Shown: piece after piece, positions 6,281 through 36,642 of the stretch
Position numbering within the stretch: the stretch's first letter is position 1
How the letters are laid out: every line of letters starts with the position of its first letter
Assembly (NCBI GenBank): GCA_011390065.1
Contig: JAABTD010000020.1
Location: 1-36,642, forward strand
From: Desulfobacteraceae bacterium
GTDB lineage: Bacteria; Desulfobacterota; Desulfobacteria; Desulfobacterales; JAABSP01
Direction of reading: 5' to 3'
DNA length: 36,642 nucleotides
The notes under the pieces: model-generated
What the model was told of the DNA's origin: nothing
Database searches by the model: none
Seen by the model: only the letters and a program-made list of their open reading frames with translations
Position numbers and translations under genes: made by a program

Positions 6281-6325
6281 GGATGCTTATCTTTCATTCA
6301 ATACGCCTGTGGGACGAGTTTGATG

Positions 6326-8178: not shown

Positions 8179-8479
8179 GGGTGCGGAACTTTTTCTTGTG
8201 GTATCATAAATTTTCTGCCATATCATACTGCACAAGGGTTTGGAAGCAGATATTCGCTCAGGCGCAGGTCCGGATCGGCGCGCCTGTGAGCGTTTTGCGA
8301 GCATTTAACGTAAAAACGATCTAAAAACGTCTCTGCGAATTGCAAAAAAGGCGGAATCGGTATAAAGTGCGAGATGGCGGGAGTGAGTATCGTTTCCGTT
8401 GTTGACTGATAGAAACAGTTGGCCGATAGAAACAAACGATCGGGCCTGCGCCGCCCGGAAAGGATGTCTGCCCGAAGTT
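8179..8479. other. Divergent intergenic region between cbiG and the histidine kinase gene
   Basis: About 300 bases separate the two divergent starts. I see no convincing gene, no B12-box (GCCACTG-type) element and no strong terminator. A 10-base direct repeat, GATAGAAACA, occurs at 8408-8417 and 8425-8434, one and a half helical turns apart, and could be a regulator site for the kinase gene. If the kinase begins at an upstream start near 8399, part of this stretch would be coding. Confidence 0.4.
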
Positions 8480-15271: not shown

Positions 15272-16801
15272 TTACTGGATGGCGTTCAGCACAAAGAGCG
15301 CCTCGGCCAATCCGATCCGCCCGTCGCCGTCCACGTCCGCCCCTCGCCGCAGCGTCTCGACGGAAATCCCGGCGGCGACCTGAAGCGACCGGACCGCGTC
15401 GGCCAGACCCACCTTCCTGTCCCCGTCCACATCCCCTTTTTTCAGAGGCTCCAGGGAAACATCCACCCGGGCAGCCTGCCCCTCCCCCACAACGATGTCG
15501 GAAACCATCTCTTCGTAACAGCCTTCGGCCCGGACGACGAGGCCGTAGACGCCGGGCAGGAGCATCCGGTGGTAATCCCCTACATCCGGATCAGTGAAAA
15601 CATCGTGGTCGATGCCCGCAACCCGGATCGTCGCGGCCACCGGCTCGCCCGTCTGACGGTTCGTGATCAGGCCGCGAACGCCCCTGCGGGACCATGTCAG
15701 ATACGCCAGCATGGCATCCCGGTTGTCTTCCCATAATTCGTCCAGTGCGGTGGAAGGCGGGGTTTTTATATCCGACGCCTCCACCGTTAACTGGTTGCAC
15801 CCCTGCCAGACATAAAACCAGTCCTGCATCCCGCCGTAAATGGCGTACCAGGCCAATCCGTTGGTGATGCCGCCGGGGAACCAGGGGCTTTGGGACATGG
15901 GCGGATTGCGGGATGCATAGGTTCGCGACTGCTCGATGAACAGCGCGTCGTCCGGTGATTCGGCATAGGCGGCGTAGGGATCGGGAACGGCATCAAAGGG
16001 ATAATTGACAACCAGGGCGCCGGTATGAAAAGAAATCGACAGTACGGGGGAATGGTCGAAGGCCCAATTCATGAGATGGCGGGTCTCGATCGGGCGCCCC
16101 GTGGGGGTGTTGACGGCATCCCGGATTCGATCGGGAAAGCTTCGGTTCAGGTCCTCGCCTCTGGCGGTGTACCGGCTGCCGGCGGCGTATCCGTCCGGAT
16201 TCATCAACGGCAAAACCCATATCTCCGTCTCGTCCACCCATTCCGTGAGGGCGGCGTCCGCGCCGTAGTTCTCCAACAGCATCGAAATGAAGCGGAGGCA
16301 CAGGATCGTCCCGGGCGGTTCATCGCCGTGGATGCCGCCCACAAAAAGGACTTCCGGCTCATCTTCTTCGATCTCGGGGGAGTCGGTGATCCGGACCATC
16401 CACAAGTCACGGCCCTGGGGGGATTGACCGATGGAGTGAAGCCTGCAGATGCCGGGGTGGCGGGCGGCCAGTTCCGACAGGGTTTTCCCGATGTCCGCCG
16501 GCGTGGGGTAGCCGGCGGCGGTCCGGGCTTTCCTGCCGTCTGAAATGGGCGACGCCGCGAACCCCAGTTCCCGGAGGGCGGCCAAGGTCTCATCGGTTCC
16601 ATAGATTCGGACGACGTCGCCCCAAATGCCGTCGATGTCGGCGCCCAGGGCCGACAGAATCCGGAGATGGTCCCGGTCCACCGGGCTGACCCATGCCGGC
16701 TTTTTGAAGGGTTCATCCTCCAGGGCCGACGCGCCGGCCGGAAGAACCCAGCCAATGCAGATCAGGGCGCAGAGGATGGCCCGCAAAGTTCGGAGCATCA
16801 T
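15272..16801 (-). CDS. Secreted M14-family zinc carboxypeptidase with a dockerin-like tail
   Basis: This 509-residue protein begins with a signal peptide (about 1-26, ending GASALE). The peptidase domain (about 95-375) has zinc ligands H158 and E161 in GGIHGDEPPG and H259 in SISFHTGA, substrate-binding N219-R220 in GEDLNRSFPD, and catalytic E341 in QLTVEASD, so it looks active. A transthyretin/CarboxypepD_reg-like beta domain follows (about 378-450, RGLITNRQTGEPVAATIRV), as in M14B enzymes. The last 57 residues hold two calcium loops, DVDGDRKVGLAD and DVDGDGRIGLAE, of dockerin type I style. The start is the first of two adjacent ATG codons (16799-16801), five bases after the LysE gene stop; a much longer frame upstream is the shadow of that gene. 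The natural substrate is unknown. Confidence 0.9.
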   Translation of the reverse strand: MMLRTLRAILCALICIGWVLPAGASALEDEPFKKPAWVSPVDRDHLRILSALGADIDGIWGDVVRIYGTDETLAALRELGFAASPISDGRKARTAAGYPTPADIGKTLSELAARHPGICRLHSIGQSPQGRDLWMVRITDSPEIEEDEPEVLFVGGIHGDEPPGTILCLRFISMLLENYGADAALTEWVDETEIWVLPLMNPDGYAAGSRYTARGEDLNRSFPDRIRDAVNTPTGRPIETRHLMNWAFDHSPVLSISFHTGALVVNYPFDAVPDPYAAYAESPDDALFIEQSRTYASRNPPMSQSPWFPGGITNGLAWYAIYGGMQDWFYVWQGCNQLTVEASDIKTPPSTALDELWEDNRDAMLAYLTWSRRGVRGLITNRQTGEPVAATIRVAGIDHDVFTDPDVGDYHRMLLPGVYGLVVRAEGCYEEMVSDIVVGEGQAARVDVSLEPLKKGDVDGDRKVGLADAVRSLQVAAGISVETLRRGADVDGDGRIGLAEALFVLNAIQ

Positions 16802-16806
16802 CCCTG

Positions 16807-17442
16807 CTATCGCCACAACGCCAATTTGACGCCGAAGCCCATCATGATCGATCCGGTGGTGCAATCCATCAGGCGTCGGACCCCTTTCCGGGCGACCCAT
16901 GTTTGGGCGTGATCCACCATGGCGGCCAGAAAGCACTGCCAGGGCATGGCAATGGCGAAATGGAGTCCGGCCAGGAAAAGGGACTGGCCGAAGGCGGACC
17001 GGGACGGATCGATGAATTGGGGCAGGAAGGCCATGTAGAAGACCACGGCTTTGGGGTTCAGAATGTTGGATAAAAATCCCTCCCGGAGAGACCTCAGGGC
17101 GCCGGCCCCAGCGGACGTCCTCTCTGCCGGAACCGCCATTGCTCCGCCGCCCTTTGCGGCGCTTTTTAAACTGACCAGGCCCAGCCAGACCAGGTAAGCG
17201 GCCCCGGCCAGTTTCAAGCCCCGGAACGCCCATGCCGACTGGAGCAGGATCACGGAAACCCCCACTGCCGAGATGGCCGCGTGGACCAGGAGCCCGGAGC
17301 AGATGCCGAGGCTGCTCAAGGCCCCGTCCCTGAAACCGCCCCGGGCCGTGTTCCGGATGACCAGCACCGTGTCCATCCCCGGGGTGAGAGTGAGCAGGGT
17401 GATGGCGATGAGATAGGTCGCCATGCCGTTTTCCGCCGTCAC
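16807..17442 (-). CDS. LysE/RhtB-family exporter
   Basis: This 211-residue inner-membrane protein has the six-helix pattern of amino-acid and metabolite exporters. Signatures include ITLLTLTPGMDTVLVIRNT, ARGGFRDGALSSLGICSG, GAAYLVWLGLVSLKS, REGFLSNILNPKAVVFYMAFLPQFI, and a final MMGFGVKLAL. The GTG at 17440-17442 was chosen because it forms a GTGA overlap with the stop of the upstream yihY remnant and gives a normal length; an internal ATG at 17422-17424 is possible. It lies five bases before the carboxypeptidase gene, so amino acids or peptides released by that enzyme are conceivable, but the direction of LysE transport is outward and the link is speculative. Confidence 0.85.
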   Translation of the reverse strand: MTAENGMATYLIAITLLTLTPGMDTVLVIRNTARGGFRDGALSSLGICSGLLVHAAISAVGVSVILLQSAWAFRGLKLAGAAYLVWLGLVSLKSAAKGGGAMAVPAERTSAGAGALRSLREGFLSNILNPKAVVFYMAFLPQFIDPSRSAFGQSLFLAGLHFAIAMPWQCFLAAMVDHAQTWVARKGVRRLMDCTTGSIMMGFGVKLALWR

Positions 17443-17924
17443 GATGCCGCCTTTCCCTCGTCGGACGGACGGATGCGGGACCCGTAGCGGCGGGCGTAGA
17501 CCTGGGTGAATTCCGCTCCGAGCAGAAGGATCTGGGCCGAATAATAGACCCAGAGCAGGATGACCAGAAAGGAGCCGGCGGCCCCATAGGTGGAGGAAAA
17601 GGCGCCCCGGGCCAGGTAGAGGCCCAGAAGAAACTGGCCGATGGTGAACAGCAGCGCCGTAAAAAGGGCGCCGATGATCACGTCTTTCCATGCCGCTTTG
17701 GCGTCGGGCACACCCCCACGAACCCGCCGATCTGGTCGACCAGATGGCCCTCCACCGTCTCCTGTCCGAAAACGACCCCGGCGACGACGATGGCGGTGAC
17801 CAGCACCGGGGGCAAGGGAAAAGGCGGCGTAATAGGCCAGGGCCGCGGCGATCTGGGCAACCTTGTCCTGACCCCGCTCGTCAAAGATCTCTTTGAAAAA
17901 AGACCAGATTTCCCTGGCGTTCAT
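17439..17924 (-). pseudogene. Broken yihY (UPF0761 membrane protein) with frameshift and internal deletion
   Basis: The N-terminal part (IFDERGQDKVAQIAAALAYYAAFSLAP) and C-terminal part (KAAWKDVIIGALFTALLFTIG, STYGAAGSFLVILLWVYYSAQILLLGAEF) are clear YihY/ribonuclease-BN-like family sequence, normally about 280-300 residues. Only 161 codons are open here. After SLAP the frame turns into Arg-rich nonsense, while the neighbouring frame continues as family sequence (VLVTAIVVAGVVFGQETVEG HLVDQIGGFVG, shown in two parts). The slip coincides with five G's at 17808-17812 (plus strand), one too many. The frames rejoin near 17715 at PDAKAAW, with roughly 130 residues of the family missing between. Slippage or a sequencing error could explain the first fault but not the deletion. 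Confidence 0.82.
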
Positions 17925-23106: not shown

Positions 23107-24402
23107 TCAGGGCGCGGATTCCGCCAGGACGCGATAATAGCGCTGAAGCCCCAGCACCAGCGCAATCCAGAAGGTGCAGATGAGAAAAGTGAACCCGCTG
23201 AACTGAGGGACGCTCAAGGTGATGGGCAGCCAACGGGTAAAAGACAGGATCAACAGGGAGCCGGTCACTTTGAAAACCCGGAAGCCGAACATGTCGATCC
23301 ACGCCTTGGCCTGGTAAATCAGCACCGGGGCGATGGGCACGTAGAGCTGTTCCCGGGAGGCCCGGTTAATGGAATTGGCCAGGCCCCGGTCGCTGATCTT
23401 TGCGGCTGAGGCGAATATCAGGGTCGGGGAGTTGTAGAAAAGAAGCGAAAACAGGCTCATGACGATGGGCTGGATCAGCAGCCCCGGAATAATCCCGGCG
23501 TAGCGGTGAACCAGCGGCGTGACGCCCAGGTTGACGACGATGGAAAAAAAACCGAGCAGGCTGAAAAACATGGAGAGGAAGGCGGTGCGCATCTCCTGTT
23601 CCGGATAGGAAAGGGCCACGGTCTTGAGAAACTGGAATTCCACCAGGGGAGAGGCCAGTTGGGCAAGGAACAGGATGCCGGCCAACAGCAGCAGATAAGG
23701 GCTATGGAGCAAAGCCCGCCATCGCCCTCCGAATGGTTTGCGGGGCCGGGGGACGCCCGGACCATCCACTTCGCAGTAGATCCCGCATATGCCCATGACC
23801 CACGTCAGCAGAAAGAGCAGAAAAATTAACCCTCCCGCCACCAGGGTGAGGTCCGCAGTAATCAAACCGGTGTGCTTGACCAGGAATCCCGCCATGGCCC
23901 CGCCGACCATGCCCCCGGCCAGCCCGCCGGTCCCCACGATCCCATACCACCGTTTCCCCTCGTGAACATTATAGATCGAGTTGCACAGGCTCCAGAACTG
24001 CTCCACGAGGATGATGCTCAGCAAGTCGACGTAAAGATAGAACAGCACCGTCACGGTCGGGCTGGGTAAGAGCAGGAACAGCGCCCGGAAAACCGCCAGA
24101 AGGACGCAGATGATCAGACAGGCGCCCATTGCCATGTGAAGACGGCTGAACCAGGCCACCAGACGATTGTAGAAGGGGATGAAGATCACCATGATCAGGG
24201 CGCTGCCGATCCAGACATAGGGCAGTTCATCGGCGCCGACGGCGCCGATGAAAAGCGACCGGCTGGCGGGCTTCAATTGATAGACGGCCATGAGGATCAA
24301 CCAGAAATTGGTGAACATGAACAAGGCCCGAATACCCATGGATCTCAGCGCGATATGTTTTCCGAAGCATTCGATGGAGCGGTTTTGGGTGTGAATTATC
24401 AT
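23107..24402 (-). CDS. NTT/TLC-family (Npt1/Npt2-like) nucleotide carrier homologue
   Basis: This 431-residue protein has about 12 membrane segments. It matches the ATP/ADP translocase-like (TLC) superfamily: NFWLILMAVYQLKPASRSLFIGAVGADELPYVWIGSAL (read in parts) and VEQFWSLCNSIYNVHEGKRWYGIVGTGGLAGGMVGG are characteristic. Members in obligate intracellular bacteria and plastids exchange ATP for ADP, while many free-living relatives have unknown substrates and some are fused to other domains; this one is not fused. The start at 24402 lacks a good ribosome-binding site, and an in-frame ATG at 24339 is an alternative. It diverges from the serine hydrolase gene at 24522. The substrate is not known from sequence. 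Confidence 0.78.
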   Translation of the reverse strand: MIIHTQNRSIECFGKHIALRSMGIRALFMFTNFWLILMAVYQLKPASRSLFIGAVGADELPYVWIGSALIMVIFIPFYNRLVAWFSRLHMAMGACLIICVLLAVFRALFLLLPSPTVTVLFYLYVDLLSIILVEQFWSLCNSIYNVHEGKRWYGIVGTGGLAGGMVGGAMAGFLVKHTGLITADLTLVAGGLIFLLFLLTWVMGICGIYCEVDGPGVPRPRKPFGGRWRALLHSPYLLLLAGILFLAQLASPLVEFQFLKTVALSYPEQEMRTAFLSMFFSLLGFFSIVVNLGVTPLVHRYAGIIPGLLIQPIVMSLFSLLFYNSPTLIFASAAKISDRGLANSINRASREQLYVPIAPVLIYQAKAWIDMFGFRVFKVTGSLLILSFTRWLPITLSVPQFSGFTFLICTFWIALVLGLQRYYRVLAESAP

Positions 24403-24476: not shown

Positions 24477-24521
24477 TAACCCTTCAATTTACCATATTCA
24501 GAAACAAAGGTGAAATTTATA

Positions 24522-25454
24522 ATGAAGATGAAATTGATCCGGTGCGGGCATCTGGTATTTTTTGCAATCCTTTTTATGGCAACGGGCATCCCCGGCGCTC
24601 AGGAATCCTGTCCGCCGCTGAAAGTCTCCGTGGACCCGGCGCTGCAAAGGGGGCTCGAACAGTTCGTTTCCGACATGGGCCTGGATGCGGCGGTCCGCTC
24701 GGAGGATCTTTGCGTGGCCCTGGTGGACATTACCCGGCCCTATGCCCCGCGGATGGCCTCCCTCAACGGGGACACCATGATGTACGCCGCCAGCCTTCCC
24801 AAAATCGCGATCCTTCTGGGAGCATTCGACCGCATCGGAAACGGAGAGCTTGCTTTTGACAGCGAGACGGAAGAGACCCTGACGCGGATGATCCGGAACT
24901 CCAGCAACAGCTGCGCCACAACCATGCTCAACCGGGTGGGAAAGCACTACCTGGCCGATCTTCTCCAGTCGCCCCGCTATCGGCTTTACGATCCGAAATT
25001 CAACGGCGGTCTGTGGGTGGGCAAGGAATACGGCAGAAGCCCGGCGTTCCGGCGGGACCCCATGTACAACCTGTCCCACGGGGCCACGGCGATTCAGACG
25101 GCTCGGTTCTACTACATGCTGGAGACCGGCCGCCTGGTTTCCCCGGAGCTGAGCCGAAAGATGAAGGAAATCCTGGGAAACCCCGCCATCTCTCATAAAT
25201 TCGTCAAGGGGCTGTCGGCGGCCCGTCCCGGTTCCAGAATCTTCCGGAAATCGGGCACATGGAAAAGCTATCACGCCGACAGCGCCATTGTCGAGCGGGC
25301 CGGCCGCAAATATATCGCCGTAGCCCTGGCCCACCGCGCCGGCGCCGGGGCAAAATGGTTTCCCAGACTCATCGTGGGGCTGGACGATCTGATTTTCAAG
25401 CCCGAACTTTATGCTAGTCGGCCGTCTTCGCAGGCCGATGAAAGGATTCGATAA
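24522..25454 (+). CDS. Secreted class A beta-lactamase-like serine hydrolase
   Basis: This 310-residue protein has a signal peptide (about 1-27, ending GIPGAQE). The penicillin-recognising fold is indicated by S91-LP-K94 (SxxK), the SSN stretch at 127-129 (SxN) and K243-SGT (KTG type). No clear omega-loop glutamate with a beta-lactamase setting is visible, so a peptidoglycan peptidase or other acyl hydrolase is as likely as a beta-lactamase. The ATG at 24522 has AAAGG nine bases upstream; a GTG at 24510 is in frame but overlaps that site. The gene converges on a second hydrolase of the same superfamily, and their 3' ends overlap by 41 bases. Confidence 0.8.
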   Translation: MKMKLIRCGHLVFFAILFMATGIPGAQESCPPLKVSVDPALQRGLEQFVSDMGLDAAVRSEDLCVALVDITRPYAPRMASLNGDTMMYAASLPKIAILLGAFDRIGNGELAFDSETEETLTRMIRNSSNSCATTMLNRVGKHYLADLLQSPRYRLYDPKFNGGLWVGKEYGRSPAFRRDPMYNLSHGATAIQTARFYYMLETGRLVSPELSRKMKEILGNPAISHKFVKGLSAARPGSRIFRKSGTWKSYHADSAIVERAGRKYIAVALAHRAGAGAKWFPRLIVGLDDLIFKPELYASRPSSQADERIR

Positions 25455-26703
25455 GTCGATGGATGCGGGTCCCCAGGGTCTGGTGTTCCACGGCTGAATT
25501 TTTCCGCAGCACATTGGACATGATCACCGCCATGTAATAGAGCGGCGGGTCGTGATACGGCGATTCGACGATGGCCATAGAGTTCATCATGTTGTAGACG
25601 TTGCCTTTATATTTTCCGCAGGAAAATCCCGCCTCTTCCCGGCACTTGTAGAGAGATCCCGACTTGAAGTAAACGGCGGATTCCCGCAGGGCCGGCGAGG
25701 AGGCGTATCGGATGCGGCGCTGGGTCATGTAGAGGAAACGCTTCAGTTCCCGGCTGGAGAACTCGTCCACCAGGGTCCCTTTTTCCATCTTCACCAGATA
25801 ATCCATGAGCGAGCGGGCGTTTGCATAGCTGTTTTTGCCCGGGACTTTCTGTTTTCCCCGCCAGGTGAAAAATCCTCCCTGACGCAGATCCTCCGAGTCG
25901 AGGCCGTTTCGGTCCGCGGGGCGATGAAGGGCCTCGGAGAGCAACGCCGAGAGTTCGCCCTTGGGCGTCTCCTGGAAAAACGCATCGATGGCCGCCGCCT
26001 CCAGTGGATAGGCTTGCCCGAATCGTTTGATCAGGAGCAGTTCCCGCTGGTTCATGGCCGCAGCAGCGTTGGAGCTGGCTGAAAACATCCAGTCCAGATA
26101 AGTGTAGAGGTTGGCCGAATCCCCTTTTTGGAGGGAGCGATAGCGGATCCGGTTGTCTCCCGGTTCCCACAGCGGAATCTTGTGGTGATCGCTCAAGATG
26201 AATTCATCGGCGACGACCTGGGTCGTCTTGAGGATCTTGTGACGGGCCGCGGGGTCATCGGGGTAAGCGTCGGCCAGAGCCTGGAAAAGGCCCAGCCCGA
26301 CCATGATTTTGCTGACGCTTCCCGGGTTGTACATGGCCTTGTCCCGATGGCCGGCGTACCGGGGGTTCTCCGGATCGGTGAGGTCGAGCACCGCCACGCC
26401 GTACCGGTTCTCTTCCCGCCCCAGCAGGTTCCGGATCTGGGAAAGAAATTTCGGATTGTCCGGCGGAATCTCAAAATTCTTGCGGTCCGTCAGGCGGATG
26501 TCCACCTCCTGGCGGGTGAGCATCGCTCCCACGGGCACTTTTTGCCCTCTCACTTTGCCTTCCTGGGCCAGGCGAAATCCCTCCAGGCGGCTGATGCCGG
26601 TGTATTCATAACCGTCCAGGGGATAGGCGTCGACGGTGGCCGCGCCCGGCAGAAGGGCGCCGGCGGCGAGAACGAGGGCGGCGGTAATTGATAAAAATCT
26701 CAT
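25414..26703 (-). CDS. Secreted beta-lactamase/penicillin-binding-like serine hydrolase (larger paralogue)
   Basis: This 429-residue protein has a signal peptide (about 1-27, MRFLSITAALVLAAGALLPG). Catalytic motifs are S129-VS-K132 (SxxK), S210-S-N212 (SxN) and K347-SGS (KSG), in the right order and spacing for the superfamily, with an N-terminal extension of about 85 residues and extra Cys residues near the end (CREEAGFSC). Asp/Asn-rich stretches lie around residues 70-120. The ATG at 26701-26703 has AAAGGAGAG upstream, which lies in the 19-base gap after the secreted dikinase gene, so the two form an operon. It overlaps the convergent hydrolase gene by 41 bases at the 3' end. The substrate is unknown. 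Confidence 0.8.
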   Translation of the reverse strand: MRFLSITAALVLAAGALLPGAATVDAYPLDGYEYTGISRLEGFRLAQEGKVRGQKVPVGAMLTRQEVDIRLTDRKNFEIPPDNPKFLSQIRNLLGREENRYGVAVLDLTDPENPRYAGHRDKAMYNPGSVSKIMVGLGLFQALADAYPDDPAARHKILKTTQVVADEFILSDHHKIPLWEPGDNRIRYRSLQKGDSANLYTYLDWMFSASSNAAAAMNQRELLLIKRFGQAYPLEAAAIDAFFQETPKGELSALLSEALHRPADRNGLDSEDLRQGGFFTWRGKQKVPGKNSYANARSLMDYLVKMEKGTLVDEFSSRELKRFLYMTQRRIRYASSPALRESAVYFKSGSLYKCREEAGFSCGKYKGNVYNMMNSMAIVESPYHDPPLYYMAVIMSNVLRKNSAVEHQTLGTRIHRLIESFHRPAKTAD

Positions 26704-26722
26704 GGGACTCTCCTTTGAGCGA

Positions 26723-29641
26723 TTACGGCGGTGCATCCAAATTCACCTGCCGGTTCACAGCGCGGTCCAATTTGGCGTCGAGGCTGATCAGAAAGGCATT
26801 GCGGCGCGCCCGGTCGCTTTCCAGAAAGGGCCGGATCTGGAAAAGAGCCAGTTCGCCATTCAGAAAACCGAATTCGATGTCGGCCGGGATTGGGGCGCCT
26901 TGGGCATTTTGCAATCGGGGAAAACGCCGGGGCGCGGTTCGGGCCAGGTCCATGAGCCGCCGGATCTCCGGCGGCGTCAGCAGCCGGTCCCGGCCGCTGG
27001 CCGGAACCTTGACAATCCCCCCTTCAGGCAGCAGGGCGACCCGGCGGGGCTCCGTGGCCTGGGCCAGCAGCCGCACCTTCCCGCTCCCCAGATGAATCCG
27101 CAGTTCTTCAGCCCCCTGTCCCTCCACGGCGCCCCCGGGTCCTTCGTTGACCGCCGCCGAGAGCCAGTCCGGGCTGCCGGTGTCGATGTCCACGGTGACC
27201 AGCACCCCGGATGTGTCCACCGGCACGCTTTTCATCAGCAGCACCGAGACGTAAACATGCATCGGGTCGGCCATATGAGCCTGCCGCCATCCGAAAGCCC
27301 GCCGGGTGAAGGGGGATGCCCATACCCGGGGGATGGCGTCGATGATTTTGTCGACACCCACCACATGGGGCACGGTGAGGTTGAGTCCCGCCCCTGAAAA
27401 GCCGGGCAGGTCCTCCACATTGGTGTCGCTCCGGATGAAGACCCCGTAACTGCCGTCCGGTCCGAAAGTCTCGGCCATGGCGGCCCGCAACCGTTCCCGA
27501 AAGGCGCTTTCCGGCCGGATGGCGGCGATCCGGCCGTGGAGTTGGTCGAGAAATTCCTGGGTAAAAGCGGCAAGCAGCCTGGGATCGCCCTCGAGGCGGT
27601 CCATCTGCTGGTATCGTGCCTCCATCCACTGCCAGATGCTGGGCCCCTCCGGCCCGCCTTTCGGATCGATGGGGTTTTCCAGAAGGGCTCGGAAGATCCC
27701 GAAGGGAAGAATCAGCCCTTGGGCCACCGCTTCCGGAAAATGGTGCTTCAGTTCGCCGAGGTTGGCGGCCTTGGGACCGGCGATGCGGCCCGAATCCGTG
27801 GCCCGGATCTCCGAGAGGGTGATAAAAGATCGGGTCGTCAGGTCGATTTTTTCTAAATCGGGTCGAATGAGTCGGTCCGGGGGCGTTTCCTTGTCCTGGA
27901 AGATCTCCTCCCATTCCGGAGCGTCCTCGGCCAGCCAGACCACGCCGCCGGGACTGGCCGCCAGGACCACTTGCGACCCGGCCCGGTCTTCCAGAAGCGG
28001 GAAGAGCCGGTCGTCGACGGAAACATTGGGAATGCCGAGGTTTCTGGCCAGCAGTTGTACATGGGACAGGGCGTTGCCCTTGCCGGCGGTCAGGATGCCC
28101 GCCACCCGGGGCAGGTCGCTGGTGGTGACCGGCAACAGATAGATCCCCCGGGGGTCGATCGCTTCGGGCGCAGCACCCGATGCCGCCATCCGGAAGGTTC
28201 CCCGGGCCAGGCCGGGGTTGAGCGCCCGGAGGCCGGCCCCCACCGGATTGCCAAACATTTCGTGGCGGATGCCGGCCAGTCGGTCCGCGTCCCGGATCAG
28301 CAAGTCAAGGGTGTCCGCCAGAAAGAGGATGGGATTGCCATGGAGACGGTCGTGAATGAAATGGACGGCCAGCGGCTCGATTTCCGCCATTTTTCCGGCG
28401 TGCCGGGAGAAGTAAAAGGAGAGCTGTCCATCGGCCCAGTCGGAGATGCGGGCGAGATAATGGAGTTCATGGCGATAGACATCCAGAAAGAGAGGAGCGG
28501 CCAGAACTCTGGCCAGGCTGTCCCCTAAGGCCGCCTTCTGCCGGGAGGAGATCAGCCCCATGCCGTAGATTCCGATGGTTGCTTCCCATGCGCGGACCAC
28601 GATTTCCCGACGAATCCGGTCCGGCGCGCCTGCTGTCAGGGCGGCGCCGTTGCCGTAGATGAAGCTTTCCAATGCCAGGCTCAGGTCCATCAGCGCCAAC
28701 CCGACGTCCGCTTTCCGTATCCGGGGCAGGGTGTCCCGGATGGCGGCCATCATCCGGTTGGCGGCGGCCATCCGGAGGGGGAGAGGAGATTCCGAAGAAA
28801 GCGTTTTTAAAGTGTTTCCAAAGGATTCGGCAATCTCCGGCGCATCGATGAGCGAGATGACGGCGGCGGCCTCGGCATGGATGTCGGAAACGGTGAAGAC
28901 CGCTTTCACCAGATGGGCCAGGCGGGCGTAATCCTCTGCGAGCGCTTCTTTGCCCTTTGTTTTGGCGTACTGCATGACCGATGGGGCGTCCGAGGCCTCC
29001 GGCAGAACGTGGAGCTTGATTCGAAGGTTCTCGAAGGCCGGGTCTTTCTCCGCAATCGTCCGGGACAATTGGCGCATTTCGGTCAGGGGCGCCCCTTTCC
29101 GGCCGTGGGGGATTGACCGCACCGCTTCCCGGAGCAACAAAAACCGATCGGTTCGCCAGCGGGGATCTTCGAGAAGGGTCAGGAGCAGTTCCCGTCCCTT
29201 TTCGGTTTCGTCCTCGGCCTGGAGAGCCCCCCGGTAATAGCGGGATTGTCGGAAGATCCATCCATTGTCGGCCCGGATAAGGTATTGTTCCAGGATCATC
29301 TGCCGCAGCATCGCTGGAAATTCCGGACGGGAAACAAAGGTTTTCGGGTCGATGTCGGCCAGGATGGTGGCGACATAATATCCGGCTTTCCGCAGGGCCT
29401 TTGTCCGGTCGCTCCATTCTCCGTGCTGGACCCCGCCGCCGTGTTCGGAGCAGTCCTCTTTAGGGTCGAGGACCGTCCCGTCCTTGCAGAACCATCGGAT
29501 GCGTTTGAAGGGGCCCCGGTGACGTTCCTTCATTTCGGTTATCCAGGTCCGGGCGATGTCCGGGTCGGGCGGTTGGGCCGCCGCCCCGGGTGACGGCAGA
29601 AAAAGAGAAATCAACACAAGGGCAAGCAATCCATCTCTCAT
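26723..29641 (-). CDS. Secreted PEP-synthase/glucan-water-dikinase-like protein
   Basis: This 972-residue protein begins with a signal peptide (MRDGLLALVLISLFLPSPGAAAQ). Residues about 25-440 are a helical region I do not recognise, with RWFCKDG...EDC near its start. Residues about 480-575 form a PEP-utilising mobile (swivel) domain with the phospho-histidine candidate H527 in GKGNALSHVQLLARNLGIPNV (read in two parts; the family norm is TSH). Residues about 605-940 form a PPDK_N/ATP-grasp nucleotide-binding domain: GPKAANLGELKHHFP, VFIRSDTNVEDLPGFSGAG (737 onwards), VNEGPGGAVEGQG and DIEFGFLNGELALFQIRPF. This swivel-then-ATP-grasp order is that of glucan water dikinases, opposite to PEP synthase. 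AGGAG precedes the ATG. Export is odd for an ATP-using enzyme. The hydrolase gene follows in the same operon. Confidence 0.82.
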   Translation of the reverse strand: MRDGLLALVLISLFLPSPGAAAQPPDPDIARTWITEMKERHRGPFKRIRWFCKDGTVLDPKEDCSEHGGGVQHGEWSDRTKALRKAGYYVATILADIDPKTFVSRPEFPAMLRQMILEQYLIRADNGWIFRQSRYYRGALQAEDETEKGRELLLTLLEDPRWRTDRFLLLREAVRSIPHGRKGAPLTEMRQLSRTIAEKDPAFENLRIKLHVLPEASDAPSVMQYAKTKGKEALAEDYARLAHLVKAVFTVSDIHAEAAAVISLIDAPEIAESFGNTLKTLSSESPLPLRMAAANRMMAAIRDTLPRIRKADVGLALMDLSLALESFIYGNGAALTAGAPDRIRREIVVRAWEATIGIYGMGLISSRQKAALGDSLARVLAAPLFLDVYRHELHYLARISDWADGQLSFYFSRHAGKMAEIEPLAVHFIHDRLHGNPILFLADTLDLLIRDADRLAGIRHEMFGNPVGAGLRALNPGLARGTFRMAASGAAPEAIDPRGIYLLPVTTSDLPRVAGILTAGKGNALSHVQLLARNLGIPNVSVDDRLFPLLEDRAGSQVVLAASPGGVVWLAEDAPEWEEIFQDKETPPDRLIRPDLEKIDLTTRSFITLSEIRATDSGRIAGPKAANLGELKHHFPEAVAQGLILPFGIFRALLENPIDPKGGPEGPSIWQWMEARYQQMDRLEGDPRLLAAFTQEFLDQLHGRIAAIRPESAFRERLRAAMAETFGPDGSYGVFIRSDTNVEDLPGFSGAGLNLTVPHVVGVDKIIDAIPRVWASPFTRRAFGWRQAHMADPMHVYVSVLLMKSVPVDTSGVLVTVDIDTGSPDWLSAAVNEGPGGAVEGQGAEELRIHLGSGKVRLLAQATEPRRVALLPEGGIVKVPASGRDRLLTPPEIRRLMDLARTAPRRFPRLQNAQGAPIPADIEFGFLNGELALFQIRPFLESDRARRNAFLISLDAKLDRAVNRQVNLDAPP

Positions 29642-30145: not shown

Positions 30146-31996
30146 TCAGGGAAGGGAATAGGCAATCTCCGGCGGATAGATCGTCACTATGCCGGACAGG
30201 GTCGCGGCAAAGTAAAGCGGGATGACGCCGGGGGCAAGCGGATAAGGGCTTGGGCCGCCGGTCAGTTGTCCATTCAGATGGTTTTTCAGGTCGCCGTTGG
30301 AGAAGATGAAGGTCCCTTCTCCGGATGAGGCGGGCGAAAGGGGGGTGTCCCCGGCCAATAAATGGAAAGGCATGTCCTGCAGAGCGGTTACCGGGGGTTC
30401 GGCCCCGTCGGGGTTCGGGAGCAAAGGCGCGAGGAAGCGGCAGGAAAGGTCGATGCCCTTCAGGATGGAAACGCCATCGTCCCGGCCGGGCGGGGGCAAC
30501 CTTAGAATGCTGCCGTTATCCCCGGGCGACCCCAGCCACACCCCGGCCCCTTTGGCCACTGAGACCACGATCCAATAGGGTTGGGCGAACAGAACCAGGC
30601 GGGTTCCCAACGCGGCCTGATGATGGGCGGGGCGCCCTGCGGACCCGATGCGGACGTTGGCCGAAGCCAGGTTTTTTCCCGAAGGAACGTCGTTCCAGTC
30701 CTCCTGAAGGGATGCGTCGAGTTCCGTATCGGATTGATGGGCCATCAGGCCGAGGGAAATCGCCGTGACGGTCATGGGAGCGTCCGGCTCGATGCGAAAG
30801 GCGATTCGGCGATCGGTGGTCAGGGAGGCTCCTATGGACATATCGGGGGCGAGGGGTTCTCCGGCGGTGTTTTTCAAGGGCAGGGGAGGAGAGGGGCCGA
30901 AGTCGGCGGCCGCCCTCAGCCATACGGTTTCCACCAATGCACCGTCCGGGAGTTGCAGATGGATGGGCCGCATCTCCGGCGCGCCGCCCGGAAATCGGAG
31001 CCGTTGCTTCTCCCGCTTGAAGGGCCCGGATTTGCCGATGGAAAGGGTTTCCCGGATCAGGGCGTAATCGATGCTGAAATCGAGATCCAGCCGACAGGGC
31101 GCATCCGATTCGACCACCAGGCCGACGCGAAGGATATGGGGGACATCAGGTTCGGTTTCGGCGTTGCCGGCGTCATTCCTGAGCTTTTCAAGATAGGCGT
31201 CGAATTGGACCTGAAGGGCCTCGGCCAGTCTTTGGCCGGCGCCGGCGTTCACCTTTGCGGCAGCCGAAGACGCCCGGATTTCACCGGGCAATTGCCAGAA
31301 AAAGGTTTCGGGCTCATCGGTTCCCTCGCCGCCCGGAATGTAGGGGCGGGTCAGACCCATGCGCGGCCCTGTGGGGAAACACTGTATCCGGATGCTCGCC
31401 AGATCATCGACAGCCAGCGCCTTCACGTCGCCGCCCGAAGAGCGCCATTGAACAGCGAAGTCGGCGCTGACGAATTCGTCGGGCAGCGATGCGCCATTGT
31501 CAGCGGCGGCGGTGGGGCCGGGGGCCTCGGCATCCCCGTCCATGCGGAAAAAGGCGATGACCCCGTGATCAATGGCCGCCGGTCGGTCTTTCGAGTAGAC
31601 GACGGCCTGAGCGCCCTCAGGTTCGTCCACGACTTCCCGTTTTTTGACGGAAGTCTGCTTGTCTGCAAATCGGGACCGCATCGCTTCGCCGGCTTCAACC
31701 CCATGGATTTTCCATGGCCGGTCCAACCGCACCCGCACCCCGTTTTCCAGCCCGATGTCCGTGTCCAGAACGGCGGAAATCGGACTTTCTTCGGACAAAA
31801 CGTCATAAATCCCGGGGGTGAAGACCGCATTGAAATCGGTGGCGTCTTTGTTCACCCTGATCCGTTCCGGCTGACCGCCGGTCTTGAAGTCCAGCAAGAT
31901 GGTCCGGCGATAGGCAAATCCTCGGGGGCCATCGACCCGGTCTCTGATCTCCCGGGGGGTCGCGCCTCCGTCGACGGCGGTGATGGAGAGTTTCAT
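30146..31996 (-). CDS. Protein of unknown function, last gene of the four-gene cluster
   Basis: This 616-residue protein has no signal peptide or membrane segment. It starts MKLSITAVDGGATPREIRDR and reads as mostly beta-structured, with many short strands (VRVRLDRPWKIHGV, ADFAVQWRSSGGDVKALAV, PCRLDLDFSIDYALI) and one helical stretch at about 235-280 (SSAAAKVNAGAGQRLAEALQVQFDAYLEKLRND). Residues about 470-500 (RLVLFAQPYWIVVSVAKGAGVWLG) suggest a ligand- or partner-binding beta-sandwich. AGGGG lies six bases before the ATG, and the start follows the coiled-coil gene stop by three bases. I do not recognise the family; co-transcription with its neighbours is the main clue to function. Confidence 0.7.
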   Translation of the reverse strand: MKLSITAVDGGATPREIRDRVDGPRGFAYRRTILLDFKTGGQPERIRVNKDATDFNAVFTPGIYDVLSEESPISAVLDTDIGLENGVRVRLDRPWKIHGVEAGEAMRSRFADKQTSVKKREVVDEPEGAQAVVYSKDRPAAIDHGVIAFFRMDGDAEAPGPTAAADNGASLPDEFVSADFAVQWRSSGGDVKALAVDDLASIRIQCFPTGPRMGLTRPYIPGGEGTDEPETFFWQLPGEIRASSAAAKVNAGAGQRLAEALQVQFDAYLEKLRNDAGNAETEPDVPHILRVGLVVESDAPCRLDLDFSIDYALIRETLSIGKSGPFKREKQRLRFPGGAPEMRPIHLQLPDGALVETVWLRAAADFGPSPPLPLKNTAGEPLAPDMSIGASLTTDRRIAFRIEPDAPMTVTAISLGLMAHQSDTELDASLQEDWNDVPSGKNLASANVRIGSAGRPAHHQAALGTRLVLFAQPYWIVVSVAKGAGVWLGSPGDNGSILRLPPPGRDDGVSILKGIDLSCRFLAPLLPNPDGAEPPVTALQDMPFHLLAGDTPLSPASSGEGTFIFSNGDLKNHLNGQLTGGPSPYPLAPGVIPLYFAATLSGIVTIYPPEIAYSLP

Positions 31997-31999
31997 GGA

Positions 32000-33736
32000 T
32001 CAGCCCCTGATATCGATGCGGAACCGGTTGTAGTCGGTCTTGAAGGTGGAAAAATCGGTGTTGAACTTCTGGAAATCCGACTCGAAGCGTTGGATGTCGG
32101 TGGCGACGTTGCTGTAGTCCCGGCGGAACTGGTCGTATTGGTCTGCAAAAGACCGGTAATCGCTGGCGAACTGGTCATATTGGGTCCGGAAGCTTTCCAG
32201 TTCCTGGCGAGCGGCGCCGCTTGCGGCTTCCAGCGCGGTCGCCTCCTGGGTGAAGCGGCCGTAACTCTGACTGAAATTGGTATATTCCCGTGCGAATGCG
32301 TTATATTCGGCGGTGAATCGGGTGTAATCCTCCCGGAACCGGTCGTAGTTGATTTCCGCGGCGTTCAATCGGTTTTCGATGCCGGACAGCCGGTCGGCCA
32401 GGTCGCCGCTGACGGTCAACTGGCCGAAGCGGTCGTCCACCGCCTTTTTCAGGTTTGTGTTGACCCGTGCGACCGTGGCCAGGGTCCCCATGCTCCCGGC
32501 GCCGATGGCCCGGTGCGCAATGTCCAGGGCGGGCAGGAGGGTGAGTTGCGCGTCCAGGGGCAGGGTCTGGAGATCGGTGGCCATGTACCGGCGGATGGCC
32601 CGTTCCGCCACCTTCTGCCCGATGGCTTCGCCGGCCCGGCCCCGATGGTCGGCCACGTAGCCGTGGGTGCTGGCAAGCATCCGGTTCAGCAGCACATCCT
32701 TTTCGGTTTCGCCGTTGCCGGCCTTGCGGAGTTCGGCCCCCAGGCGGTCTTCATCCCGAAGGAGGGCCGCATAAGGCTGAAGCCAGGGACCGACCCAGTC
32801 CTTTAACCGCACCCGTCGGGCCGCCGCCGCCGTTACGGCGGAAGGATCTCCCGGCGGGTGGATCATGGCCGTGATCAGGGCGTCATGGAAATGCCAGTGG
32901 TTGAGCTGGGCCCGGGGGATGACGACATCCGCGGTTCGCGACCGCCAGATCTGGTAATGGATGTCCACGGCGCCGCGAAGATCGGAATTCCGTTTCCGAC
33001 CATATTCCATCGCCATGGATTGGAGAGACGCCAGCATGGCGATGGGGGCGGACGCCGACGGATCGAGGCGGCTCAGGGCGGTTTCAAGGGCCGCCTGCTG
33101 GGCCCGGGTGAGTTGTTCGGCAAAAGGGGACCGGAGGGTCGCCCGGGCTTTGCCGGCCGCGTCGGTGCGGAGGACGATGACAGGACCGGCGTCCATGCCG
33201 AAGCCGACAAAGGCCTGGAGAGTCCCCCAGGTGGCGGCGACGGTCAAATCGACATTGGCCCTGGGGCGGCCCGCGGCGGCGTCGAAAACCTCGATCAGCA
33301 GGTTCAGCGGCTGGCCCAGATACCCGCTTTCCTGCACCGGCCGCAGGGCAACCCGCAGTCCGGTTTCCCTGGCGGAGTGGAGGGCCGATACCGCTTCCCG
33401 GACTTCCCGGATCTCAGCCCGCAGCGCATCCATTTCCGACGACTTCGGCGCAGGGGTTCGGGGCAACCGTCCGGTGAGCGCCTGGACGATCTCCGTGAAC
33501 CGCTCCGGCCCCACCCACGGGACGTCATAAACCTGTTCCAGCGTTTCGAAGGCGCCGCCCAAGGCGGTGCGCCGGTCGAGAATCCGCTGCCCGACACCTA
33601 TGCCCACGTCCAGTTCGCCGGGGATCTCGACGGCATCGGCGATCTCCCGGGCGCTGGCCGCCCGGTTGAGGAAATCCAGGATCTTGCGAGCGTCGTCTCG
33701 GTCGATTTCCCGAGGTGTGAAATAGCGTTCGGCCAT
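32000..33736 (-). CDS. HhH, Ig-like and long aromatic coiled-coil protein
   Basis: This 578-residue protein has no signal peptide. Residues about 15-90 resemble a ComEA-like helix-hairpin-helix module (ARKILDFLNRAASAREIADA, then LEQVYDVPWVGPERFTEIVQAL). Residues about 128-203 look like a bacterial Ig-like domain (LTVAATWGTLQAFVGFG, VIVLRTDAAGKARATLRSPF). A helical core follows (about 205-440; DWVGPW at 313-318). Residues 450-576 form a coiled coil with unbroken 3-4 spacing of core positions, mostly Tyr and Phe (YDRF, YTRF, YNAF, YTNF, YGRF; later YDQF, YRSF, FQKF, FSTF, YNRF). The Ig-like and core parts are paralogous to the next upstream gene. The function is unknown; a fibre or stalk of a multi-protein assembly is plausible. 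Confidence 0.72.
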   Translation of the reverse strand: MAERYFTPREIDRDDARKILDFLNRAASAREIADAVEIPGELDVGIGVGQRILDRRTALGGAFETLEQVYDVPWVGPERFTEIVQALTGRLPRTPAPKSSEMDALRAEIREVREAVSALHSARETGLRVALRPVQESGYLGQPLNLLIEVFDAAAGRPRANVDLTVAATWGTLQAFVGFGMDAGPVIVLRTDAAGKARATLRSPFAEQLTRAQQAALETALSRLDPSASAPIAMLASLQSMAMEYGRKRNSDLRGAVDIHYQIWRSRTADVVIPRAQLNHWHFHDALITAMIHPPGDPSAVTAAAARRVRLKDWVGPWLQPYAALLRDEDRLGAELRKAGNGETEKDVLLNRMLASTHGYVADHRGRAGEAIGQKVAERAIRRYMATDLQTLPLDAQLTLLPALDIAHRAIGAGSMGTLATVARVNTNLKKAVDDRFGQLTVSGDLADRLSGIENRLNAAEINYDRFREDYTRFTAEYNAFAREYTNFSQSYGRFTQEATALEAASGAARQELESFRTQYDQFASDYRSFADQYDQFRRDYSNVATDIQRFESDFQKFNTDFSTFKTDYNRFRIDIRG

Positions 33737-33763
33737 GGCGTTAAGATGATGCCCGCGCGCCCA

Positions 33764-35296
33764 TTAGAAATTCCCCACGTTGGATTTGATCTCGCCGATA
33801 TGCGCGTTGATCTGGGCGAGGGTCCCCTGGAGCGTATCCTGATTGAGGGGGTCGATGGCCACCACCTTGTTCTCGATGTCGCTGAGGGAAACCTGGATCG
33901 CCTGGCCCACCTGGCGGGTGTTTTCCATCTCCAGACCCAACGTGGTCACCGATGCCTTGACCCCCGACACCTCCGCGGTCACGGCATTCACGCCGGATTC
34001 GGCCGCATCGACCTTGCCGGACATGGCGCCCACCTGGGCCGACTGACCCATCAGGGCATAGAAGGCGGACCCGCCGCGCACAGCTTCCCTGCCGCCGGTG
34101 AACTCCAGCACATCCATCTTCCGCTGGGTGGCGACCGCCCCTTTCACCGCGTCGGTCATCTTCGTTATGAAAGGGGGTGGGTCGGGAACATGGATCTGGT
34201 CCAGGGCGCGTTCCGCTGCGTGCAAGGTTTTCTGACGACCGATGATCCCCTTGTCCGAAACCCGTTCGGCCATGATGTCCCGGATGCCGCCGATGGAGAT
34301 TTCATAATCGGTAGTGATCTGTGATCCAAAGGCGTCTGCGATGCCGGCGGCCTCAACGACGATGTCGTCGAGGTACCCCCCGATCCAGCTGCCGACCCAA
34401 TCCCGGAAATCGATCTGGATGGAGGCGGTCCCCCGGCTGAAATCAGGGGTGCGGGGATCAATGTCGTTTTTGACCGAAGCGATGACCGTTGTCCGGTAGT
34501 TTCGCCAGCTGCCGCCGGCAAAGCCGTATTGCCCCTTGGCGATCCCGTCGTGGCGGTAGTAAGCGTCGGCCCATTTCCGGAAGGGATGGCTGCCGGACCG
34601 CTCGTAGGACGCGGCTACCGCGCCGAAGGCTTTCCGCGCCCTGGCGTCCTCGGGGGTGGCGGTCTCCATGATGATCCGGGCCAGGGTCATCTCCTCGCCT
34701 TCCACCGTGGCTTCCAGCATGTCGGCCACCTGGAGATGGTCCGATTCGGACAGATCCGCGGCATGATCCGCCCGGACCCGGACCCGTGCGATCCCCTGGT
34801 CGTTGACCTGAACCGACATGGCCCGATCCCCGACGCCCACGCGGGTGTTGAAGCCGCCCACGGCCTGGAGGCGGCCCCAGGAACAGAACAGATCGACCCA
34901 GGGCAGGGGATCGGGGACCGCGCCTTCCAGGGTCCGGACCCTGGCGGTGATTTCGGCAGGCTGACCAAGGGCGAAATGGACCTTGCCGGTCTCCAGGGTG
35001 ACCCGGTAATGGTCGCCCAGAGGGGCGAGACGGGTCAACGTCGTCTCCTGGGCCTGGTCGCTATCTTCCAGGGCCGCCACCCGGTCCTGCAGATCCGAAA
35101 TGTCGGCCGCGTGCTGCGCTGTCGTCGCGTCGAGCGCCGTCACTGCGTTCTTGATCGCCGTTACCTGCTTCTCAAGCGCGTCGCCCATGGCGATGATGCT
35201 TCCCACCAGGGTTTTCCAGTCTCCGGCCTGGATCAGCTGGCCGTCTTCCTTTTCCCTGATCGATTCCAGGGCTTTGATTGCCTCTTCAACGCTCAT
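33764..35296 (-). CDS. Ig-like and coiled-coil protein, paralogue of the downstream gene
   Basis: This 510-residue protein has no signal peptide. Residues about 1-85 are helical and coiled-coil (IKNAVTALDATTAQHAADIS, DLQDRVAALEDSDQAQE). Residues about 97-178 are Ig-like, with DLFCSWGRLQAVGGF and VQVNDQGIARVRVRA, matching AATWGTLQAFVGFG and LRTDAAGKARATLRS in the neighbour. A helical core (about 180-400) includes IDFRDWVGSWIGGYLDD, matching LKDWVGPWLQPY, and GIIGRQKTLHAAERALDQI. The C-terminal 90 residues are a coiled coil of ordinary small-residue type (SGKVDAAESGVNAVTAEVSG ... GTLAQINAHIGEIKSNVGNF). GGAGATGCATC precedes the ATG, and the start overlaps the stop of the propeller gene (ATGA). 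The frame open to 35866 is a shadow of that gene. Confidence 0.72.
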   Translation of the reverse strand: MSVEEAIKALESIREKEDGQLIQAGDWKTLVGSIIAMGDALEKQVTAIKNAVTALDATTAQHAADISDLQDRVAALEDSDQAQETTLTRLAPLGDHYRVTLETGKVHFALGQPAEITARVRTLEGAVPDPLPWVDLFCSWGRLQAVGGFNTRVGVGDRAMSVQVNDQGIARVRVRADHAADLSESDHLQVADMLEATVEGEEMTLARIIMETATPEDARARKAFGAVAASYERSGSHPFRKWADAYYRHDGIAKGQYGFAGGSWRNYRTTVIASVKNDIDPRTPDFSRGTASIQIDFRDWVGSWIGGYLDDIVVEAAGIADAFGSQITTDYEISIGGIRDIMAERVSDKGIIGRQKTLHAAERALDQIHVPDPPPFITKMTDAVKGAVATQRKMDVLEFTGGREAVRGGSAFYALMGQSAQVGAMSGKVDAAESGVNAVTAEVSGVKASVTTLGLEMENTRQVGQAIQVSLSDIENKVVAIDPLNQDTLQGTLAQINAHIGEIKSNVGNF

Positions 35297-36642
35297 GATG
35301 CATCTCCTCGAACGATGTCGCTTTCCACCGCCAGCAGAACCCGGACCCCCGCCGGCCGAACCCGGTTCATGGCTCCCCAGACCCGGTCCAGGATGGCCGG
35401 ATGGATCGATTCTCCCGCATGTCGCCGCTGGAGCCGGACGATGACGGAATATGGCCGGCGCGCGCGCCATTGGAACCAGACCGACGCCGCCGGCGGATAG
35501 GCGAAGACGACCCGGTCGAACCTGCTTTCCGGCCGTTTTTTCGGGGCCGGGTCCCGGAACCGGCCGGGATAGGGGGCGGTCACATCCGATGGCGGCGTCA
35601 TCAGCCGCCCTTCGGAGGACCACGCGGGGCCGTCTTTGGGGGGTATCGGACCAGGGGGCTCCACGGGGGGCTCCATGGAAAGATACCGCCAGTCCGACGG
35701 TCCCACCGGCATGCGCGGAGGCCCTGGAATGCCGCCCGGCAAGATCCGATCCTCGGTCGGCTTCACCCGCAGGACCAGCTCCGACGGATCCACGGTTTCC
35801 GACGGGGTGAACGCGCCGTCGGCCGGGTCCCAGGTTCCGAGATCGGCGATCACGCCGTCGGTCCACGTCATGGCCCGGACCGCAGTCTCTTCGCTGCTGC
35901 GCGGGGCGCCTTCATAAAGACCCCAGTCGGTCATGCCCGGACCGACCCGTTGCCAGCGCCCGCCGCTCAGGGTCCGGTTGAACCGCCAGGACCCCCGATC
36001 CTCAGGCGGCCGGCCTGCAGGATAGAAAAGGCCCGCCTTTCCCTGGGGAGTCCAGCGATGTTCGACTTCAATATACTGGGCTGTATCCCGGCCGTCAAAG
36101 CGGAACAGTCCCCGGTCGGCGCCGAAAAGGATGCGACCCAGCGGATCCTGCCCCATGGCGTGAACCGGCCCGTTCACGAGATCGGGAAAGGCCTCCAGAA
36201 AGGTTGTGTAGGTCAACCCGTCGGCTGAATGCGCCATGTATCGGGCCGCCCCTCGGTCCGTGCCGATCCATAGCGCGCTGTTCTGTCCCACGGCAAGACT
36301 CCGGACCGGGGGCAGAAAGACGTCGGCGGCGCCGGGGAGGTCGCCGGTTTCCAGCTTGATCCAGTCGGAGGCCTCGTCGGCGGCTCCCTGGCCGCTGTAG
36401 TGATAAAGATGATCCAGCCCCGGCTGATACTGGAACACGCCGAGATCGCCGCCGAAATAGAGGACGCCGTCGACATCCCGGGCAATGGCGCGTATGGGGG
36501 TCCCCTGAACGCCCAAAGGGATCAGGTCGTTTTCGGCGGAAAGGCGAAAGACCCCGGTATCGGCGCCCAGCAGCAGGTCGTTTCCGTCGGGGAGAAAGGC
36601 GTAGACGGCGGTTCCGGACAGGGCCGCCAGCGGATTCGCGGT
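35293..36642 (-). CDS. Beta-propeller protein with a short alpha/beta tail domain (5' end outside window)
   Basis: At least 449 residues are encoded, open through the right edge, so the true start lies outside. The N-terminal 220 residues show repeated propeller blades such as DVDGVLYFGGDLGVFQYQPG, SALWIGTDRGAARYM, GRILFGADRGLFRFDG and LLLGADTGVFRLSA, like the regulator-type propeller repeats of Reg_prop proteins. A Pro-rich linker follows (PPVEPPGPIPPKDGPAW). The last 85 residues (FDRVVFAYPPAASVWFQWRA ... PYSVIVRLQRRHAGESIHPA, ILDRVWGAMNRVRPAGVRVL) form an alpha/beta unit that recalls the end domains of some phage-tail baseplate proteins, a weak resemblance. Its stop overlaps the next gene start (ATGA). 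The role is unknown. Confidence 0.72.
   Translation of the reverse strand, partial: TANPLAALSGTAVYAFLPDGNDLLLGADTGVFRLSAENDLIPLGVQGTPIRAIARDVDGVLYFGGDLGVFQYQPGLDHLYHYSGQGAADEASDWIKLETGDLPGAADVFLPPVRSLAVGQNSALWIGTDRGAARYMAHSADGLTYTTFLEAFPDLVNGPVHAMGQDPLGRILFGADRGLFRFDGRDTAQYIEVEHRWTPQGKAGLFYPAGRPPEDRGSWRFNRTLSGGRWQRVGPGMTDWGLYEGAPRSSEETAVRAMTWTDGVIADLGTWDPADGAFTPSETVDPSELVLRVKPTEDRILPGGIPGPPRMPVGPSDWRYLSMEPPVEPPGPIPPKDGPAWSSEGRLMTPPSDVTAPYPGRFRDPAPKKRPESRFDRVVFAYPPAASVWFQWRARRPYSVIVRLQRRHAGESIHPAILDRVWGAMNRVRPAGVRVLLAVESDIVRGDAS

Follow-up and report, generated by a model that had tools for sequence, protein, structure and literature searches.

How could an ATP-consuming enzyme work outside the cytoplasm, and what would its acceptor be? 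This question is raised by a protein, here denoted D, that is encoded in a contig of 36,642 nucleotides (hereafter, the window) from a Desulfobacteraceae bacterium of the class Desulfobacteria (assembly GCA_011390065.1, contig JAABTD010000020.1). D was originally predicted to be an exported dikinase-like protein with the domain order of the glucan and phosphoglucan water dikinases (GWD and PWD). We know of no described dikinase of this superfamily that is anything other than a cytosolic or plastid enzyme. Furthermore, the general view, to our knowledge, is that the periplasm contains no ATP, which counts against the explanation that we favor below. The features of the locus are collected in Table 1.

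Table 1. Features of the D locus, with positions in the window.
Feature	Positions	Strand	Details
D, exported dikinase-like protein	26723..29641	-	972 aa, from ATG
Predicted D signal peptide	29576..29641	-	residues about 1-22 (AAA|QPP), cleavage site estimated by eye
D N-terminal helical region, candidate acceptor-binding part	28274..29563	-	residues 27-456; invariant C52 and C64
D phosphohistidine swivel domain	27917..28267	-	residues about 459-575
H527 codon, candidate phospho-histidine	28061..28063	-	invariant in 97 sequences
D PPDK_N-type ATP-grasp domain	26807..27832	-	residues about 604-945; invariant K624, R737, T756, D921, E923, Q935, R937
B, exported beta-lactamase-family serine hydrolase	25414..26736	-	SxxK at S140, SSN 221-223, KSG 358-360
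X, second exported beta-lactamase/PBP-A-like serine hydrolase	24510..25454	+	strand opposite to D and B
T, NTT/TLC-family ATP/ADP carrier homolog	23107..24402	-	431 aa

Domain architecture and active site of D

Pfam detects two domains in D, a swivel (PF00391 at residues 504-541, 22.4 bits, slightly under the cut-off of 23.1) and PPDK_N (PF01326 at residues 621-945, 74.4 bits), so that the swivel lies N-terminal to the ATP-grasp domain, which is C-terminal and followed by a tail of about 30 residues. This is the order found in GWD and PWD, as originally claimed, and it is unlike that of PEP synthase (PEPS) and pyruvate phosphate dikinase (PPDK), where the ATP-grasp domain comes first, followed by the swivel and the PEP/pyruvate barrel. 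The order of rifampin phosphotransferase (RPH), with an N-terminal ATP-grasp, a rifampin-binding domain and a C-terminal swivel, is likewise reversed in D, which scored 59.8 bits against the NCBIfam model RIF_Ptrans_rph (cut-off 999).

In the AF2 model of D, obtained with 79 homologs as input (pLDDT 88.7, pTM 0.85), a signal helix leads into a mostly helical part that extends to about residue 456 and is followed by the swivel and then the ATP-grasp domain. Model and Pfam together confirm the predicted succession of a helical region, a swivel with H527 and a PPDK_N-type ATP-grasp domain. The modeled ATP-grasp domain (residues about 602-946) matched RPH with bound AMPPNP (5hv1; Z 33.8, rmsd 2.1, 310 residues), and the modeled swivel (residues 459-574) matched the RPH swivel (5fbu; Z 9.7, rmsd 2.8, 101 residues). 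For the N-terminal region, Foldseek identified no solved fold at E<=0.001 (the best value was 0.64), and VIA matches were helical bundles with Z up to 10.5 across about 100 residues; on the model, this fold is left unplaced and is not claimed as new. The Pfam scan produced no match outside the swivel and ATP-grasp domains, starch-binding modules included, with the proviso that the CBM45 model is possibly absent from the Pfam copy scanned.

The candidate phospho-histidine, H527, is located in GNALSHVQLLARNLGIPN. Together with K624, R737, E743, D921, E923, Q935 and R937, it is identical in 18 of 18 and 79 of 79 aligned D sequences (97 of 97), which cover two deep subgroups, and T756 occupies a column that does not vary in either alignment. 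A profile alignment places K624 opposite Lys22 of RPH-Lm, R737 opposite Arg117 and T756 opposite Thr136, three residues whose substitution abolishes rifampin phosphorylation; E923 matches Glu297, which is dispensable in that enzyme (PMC4844700). D accordingly displays the conserved ATP-site residues and phospho-histidine of the dikinase superfamily and, as judged by these residues, has an intact active site. The original prediction that H527 is a retained phospho-histidine candidate holds up, and no consistent loss of ATP-binding residues was found across the family, in keeping with the suggestion that activity is not wholly lost.

Export signal

The N-terminus of D, MRDGLLALVLISLFLPSPGAAAQ, resembles a Sec signal peptide. 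We defined an export h-region as an 11-residue window with a mean Kyte-Doolittle hydropathy of at least 2.0 and found one in 77 of the 78 D homologs with a readable N-terminus (the value in the remaining one is 1.97), compared to 0 of 19 PEPS-order or ATP-grasp-only relatives. By hydropathy, then, the predicted signal is a property of the homologs as well, and D differs in this respect from GWD and PWD, which are plastid or cytosolic enzymes. AxA-type sites follow the hydrophobic N-terminus in 48 of the 78 homologs, and it is the hydrophobic character of the segment that is kept across the homologs, not its sequence, as in signal peptides. Shortly after this segment, C52 and C64 are identical in all aligned sequences (18 of 18 and 79 of 79) and would suit a disulfide. 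Text searches of the open-access literature found no description of a dikinase that is exported or periplasmic. The Pseudomonas ATP-grasp protein RloC, encoded in an operon with a secreted protease, was considered as a precedent and rejected because it is predicted to be cytosolic.

Relatives and phylogeny of D

Full-length homologs of D, with 33-79% identity, are present in more than 20 genomes of the class, and D, in full or in clear part, was detected in 25 of 291. Within the class, D consists of two subgroups, with about 47-79% and 32-37% identity to D of the window, respectively. Across species genomes, tblastn confirmed at least 584 relatives; given these and the full-length homologs, D is not a chance ORF. 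The best 80 of the at least 584 relatives, which were kept for further comparison, are mostly labeled Gammaproteobacteria or Deltaproteobacteria/Desulfobacterota, with some labeled Betaproteobacteria, Myxococcales or Nitrospirae, and include the cultured strains Aestuariicella albida, Agaribacterium haliotis, Parahaliea aestuarii and Guyparkeria hydrothermalis. No relatives were found in the viral contigs searched.

The ATP-grasp tree is unrooted, has long branches, and includes D, PEPS-order proteins and two bacterial GWD-like proteins (L061 and L062). In this tree, D forms one deep, well-supported clade, apart from the PEPS-order proteins and from L061 and L062. Because three monophyletic groups have a single unrooted topology, a sister relationship between D and GWD is not readable from the tree. 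We conclude that D is a previously undescribed variant of the dikinase superfamily. A functional link to glucan, which the domain order had brought to mind, received no support: neither the Pfam scan, nor the Foldseek search with the N-terminal region, nor the separate position of D in the tree hints at one.

The proteins L061 (L061:1465-4233, minus strand) and L062 (L062:1-1455, plus strand), from the same class, contain RSSANCEDL...GAGLYES and LSHLAVRAR in their swivel and ATP-grasp domains, which we take to be strikingly like those of plant GWD. Each adjoins an ORF resembling a sugar-isomerase-type TIM barrel, and both are possible bacterial relatives of GWD.

A conserved four-gene module

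Comparison of D neighborhoods, in 20 loci at first and then in 80 (the best 80 of at least 584), revealed the same three partners, B, X and T, in both sets. Among the 31 loci with at least 7 kb on each side of D, 29 contain B, 26 contain X and 26 contain T, and the three occur together in 24. Where all four genes are present, they occur in at least 15 signed gene orders, so that the linkage amounts to more than inherited synteny. The cultured strains Guyparkeria hydrothermalis (L157), Aestuariicella albida (L103) and Agaribacterium haliotis (L135) have all four genes linked. In the window, the reading frame of B and the end of D overlap; in 36 of 66 loci, the overlap is exactly 4 nt, a sign of coupled translation. 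Clustering of the flanking ORFs from the 80 loci (again, the best 80 of at least 584) identified no fifth conserved neighbor that recurs beside D. Judging from gene linkage, D, B, X and T are a conserved four-gene module.

Elsewhere in the window, there is a cobalamin biosynthesis cluster (1897-8304, minus strand; aminotransferase, CobS, CobQ/CbiA-type, CbiG), an M14 zinc carboxypeptidase (15272-17587, minus strand) that includes a regulatory-like domain and ends with a weak match to dockerin type I, and a succession of three large ORFs of 616, 578 and 700 aa without a convincing family match (30146-35866, minus strand).

The association of T with D extends beyond adjacency. With a close T homolog defined as one scoring at least 100 bits, a threshold picked after the data were seen, such a homolog is present in 22 of the 25 genomes of the class with D and in 0 of the 266 without it (Fisher p 4e-30, ignoring relatedness; the 22 genomes come from 15 genera). 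Genomes without D do contain NTT proteins of a more distant kind, at about 60-85 bits. At some D loci, no T lies within 10 kb, which counts against the favored explanation. An NTT homolog is present in 12 of 12 further D-bearing genomes, in some of them with no T beside D, and in two genomes without a linked T (G300 and G301), a close T is found elsewhere in the genome, in one case with a stop codon inside the match. The question of where an exported dikinase would obtain its ATP, raised along with the original prediction, was a good one, and an answer is suggested by the NTT/TLC-type carrier gene in the same conserved cluster, which lies beyond the positions covered by that prediction.

The carrier homolog T

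T matches PF03219 at 54.4 bits, above the cut-off of 21, and the solved ATP/ADP carriers 9j3n (E 6e-15) and 9j3j, and remains below the cut-off of the NCBIfam NTP/NDP exchanger model TIGR00769 (50.2 bits, cut-off 387.2). On these scores, T is a distant NTT, which counts against the favored explanation. Characterized NTTs mainly exchange ATP and ADP. In the divergent D subgroup, T is about 950-966 aa long, with the carrier as its N-terminal part, and we read the rest as a HEAT-type extension like that of NTT-HEAT fusions; Pfam weakly detected HEAT in the T-like proteins encoded at two further loci (L099 and L117).

In five loci (L105, L154, L159, L161 and L163), another T-like ORF, about 1040-1120 aa long, lies upstream of D on the opposite strand. 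The one in L105 has a C-terminal cyclic-nucleotide-binding domain, like the described NTT-HEAT-cNBD fusions. Close homologs of T of the window were also found in two genomes in which D belongs to the divergent subgroup and lies elsewhere (G145:C115:12174-13448 and G197:C1:4264329-4265597), so that parts of the two subgroups can mix within one genome.

On the opposite strand, T adjoins a HAD IIIB acid phosphatase (PF03767; 22225-23082, plus strand). Proteins of this family can function as nucleotidases, and this neighbor could process spent nucleotide. Among the loci compared, a homolog beside T was found only in the same-genus locus. In the available portion of the NTT survey text (PMC5381601), the NTTs and HEAT fusions of free-living bacteria are described as largely uncharacterized, and there is no mention of a link between NTTs and an exported enzyme.

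The serine hydrolases B and X

Both B and X are beta-lactamase-family proteins (PF13354) with export-type N-termini in most members. The SxxK serine and lysine are invariant, and SxN and KSG elements are present, giving both the motif set of class A beta-lactamases and PBP-A. Among solved chains, X comes closest to PBP-A of Thermosynechococcus (Tll2115), a weak match (E 0.002) to a DD-carboxypeptidase/endopeptidase (PMC11189452); sequence comparison of B with solved structures gave no meaningful match. An ORF at 24498-25514 on the minus strand was dropped as a candidate module gene because the conserved homologs are on the opposite strand and correspond to X.

A proposed mechanism and its alternatives

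The explanation toward which we lean, if only slightly, is that D is active outside the cytoplasm, using ATP from T to phosphorylate an envelope acceptor via H527, and that B and X work on the same substrate. D would be exported by Sec, and its ATP-grasp domain would move the beta-phosphate of ATP onto H527 of the swivel, a transfer to histidine that has been described for GWD (PMC7569903) and RPH (PMC4844700), with the gamma-phosphate passing to water and AMP being released. From the swivel, the phosphate would pass to an acceptor that is bound by the N-terminal helical region. T, as an NTT-type carrier in the inner membrane, would supply ATP by moving cytosolic ATP out and spent nucleotide in, and B and X, as exported SxxK serine hydrolases, would act on the envelope substrate of D, perhaps peptidoglycan or another polymer with peptide or acyl groups, as suggested by these PBP-like partners. 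The sequences themselves display the export signals, the ATP-grasp and phospho-histidine residues, the linkage and co-occurrence of D and T, and the hydrolase motifs; what we infer is that D is catalytic, which substrate T moves and in which direction, and what the acceptor is.

The dikinase reaction yields AMP, and the mismatch with NTTs that exchange ATP and ADP counts against this explanation; the AMP would have to be accepted by T or converted by another enzyme. More generally, free-living bacteria might possess a dedicated periplasmic ATP supply, in which an NTT-type carrier exports ATP and a swivelling dikinase phosphorylates the envelope, a proposal that we put forward tentatively, as plausible but somewhat less likely than not. 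The eukaryotic secretory pathway, where ATP is imported for use by lumenal kinases, would offer a parallel to such a supply.

The alternative that survives best, which we nevertheless consider unlikely, is that D is exported and catalytic, but is not fed by T. T would then move another nucleotide, such as NAD, D would run on leaked or extracellular ATP or on a different phosphoryl donor, for instance pyrophosphate, and the module would scavenge nucleotides or phosphate from outside. Some NTT proteins indeed transport NAD or other nucleotides, or take up nucleotides (PMC5381601), and the superfamily includes enzymes able to run towards ATP, such as PPDK (PMC5371819). The acid phosphatase gene next to T fits this alternative too, but is a neighbor in the same genus only, and no other nucleotide-salvage gene recurs near D in the 80 loci (best 80 of at least 584); the conservation of the ATP-site residues of D, without exception in 97 sequences, also argues against it.

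Rather improbable, and somewhat more so than a role of T unrelated to feeding D, is that the exported D activates a small molecule or forms a bond, like the PigC and RedH ligases, which have the same domains. The ATP-grasp domain of D is matched by the NCBIfam models for PigC and RedH, but these models are not specific, as PEPS and RPH match them equally well or better. The superfamily phosphorylates small molecules as unlike as rifampin and phenols, and the acceptor domain of D has no solved-fold match, so that its substrate is not readable from the fold; the two PBP-like partners, however, suggest an envelope target.

We regard it as very improbable that D is cytoplasmic, its N-terminus being either no true export signal or a mere membrane anchor with the domains inside. 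The export signal was judged by hydropathy, and a cytosolic or plastid location is the one described for the superfamily. However, the near-universal hydrophobic N-terminus, variable in sequence and followed by AxA-type sites in many homologs, the cysteines just after it that would suit a disulfide, and the export-type N-termini of B and X all favor export. Finally, that D has lost catalysis and serves for binding or as a scaffold, as its placement where no ATP pool is known might suggest, is hardly credible, with each tested ATP-site and phospho-histidine residue invariant in 97 sequences from two deep subgroups.

Implications and comparison with known systems

If T feeds D, the four genes would represent a new kind of system. 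The exported dikinase is widespread and apparently intact, and its linkage and co-occurrence with an ATP/ADP-carrier homolog make periplasmic ATP use directly testable in cultured marine bacteria; many bacteria with this gene set may drive reactions in a compartment that is usually considered ATP-free. For the NTT proteins of free-living bacteria, some NTT-HEAT fusions among them, the module also offers a candidate role, and it points to an undescribed modification of the envelope.

Among the known systems, GWD and PWD resemble D in the placement of the swivel before a C-terminal ATP-grasp domain, in the LSH context of the phospho-histidine and in the RS..NVEDL motif, and the transfer of the beta-phosphate via histidine with formation of AMP and Pi is to be expected for D as well. 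They differ in that they are plastid enzymes, whereas D is predicted to be exported and has an unrelated-looking helical N-terminal region, and the bacterial GWD-like L061 and L062 belong to a separate clade. RPH and the small-molecule dikinases of the HpeHI type share with D the folds of the ATP-grasp and swivel domains (Z 33.8 and 9.7, respectively, for the RPH structures), the ATP-site residues and the lack of a PEP barrel, but these enzymes have the opposite domain order and another acceptor domain, are not exported and have no carrier partner. PEPS and PPDK also combine an ATP-grasp domain, with clear sequence homology to that of D, and a phospho-histidine swivel; unlike D, they are cytosolic, have the opposite domain order and possess the PEP/pyruvate barrel. 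The NTT/TLC carriers and NTT-HEAT fusions are connected to T through PF03219, the homology to 9j3n and 9j3j, and the long, NTT-HEAT-type form in the divergent subgroup, whereas T itself is distant from the characterized carriers and is linked to a putative exported dikinase. Similarly, B and X share PF13354 and the SxxK, SxN and KSG motifs with PBP-A and the class A beta-lactamases, but are very divergent putative hydrolases and are partners of D.
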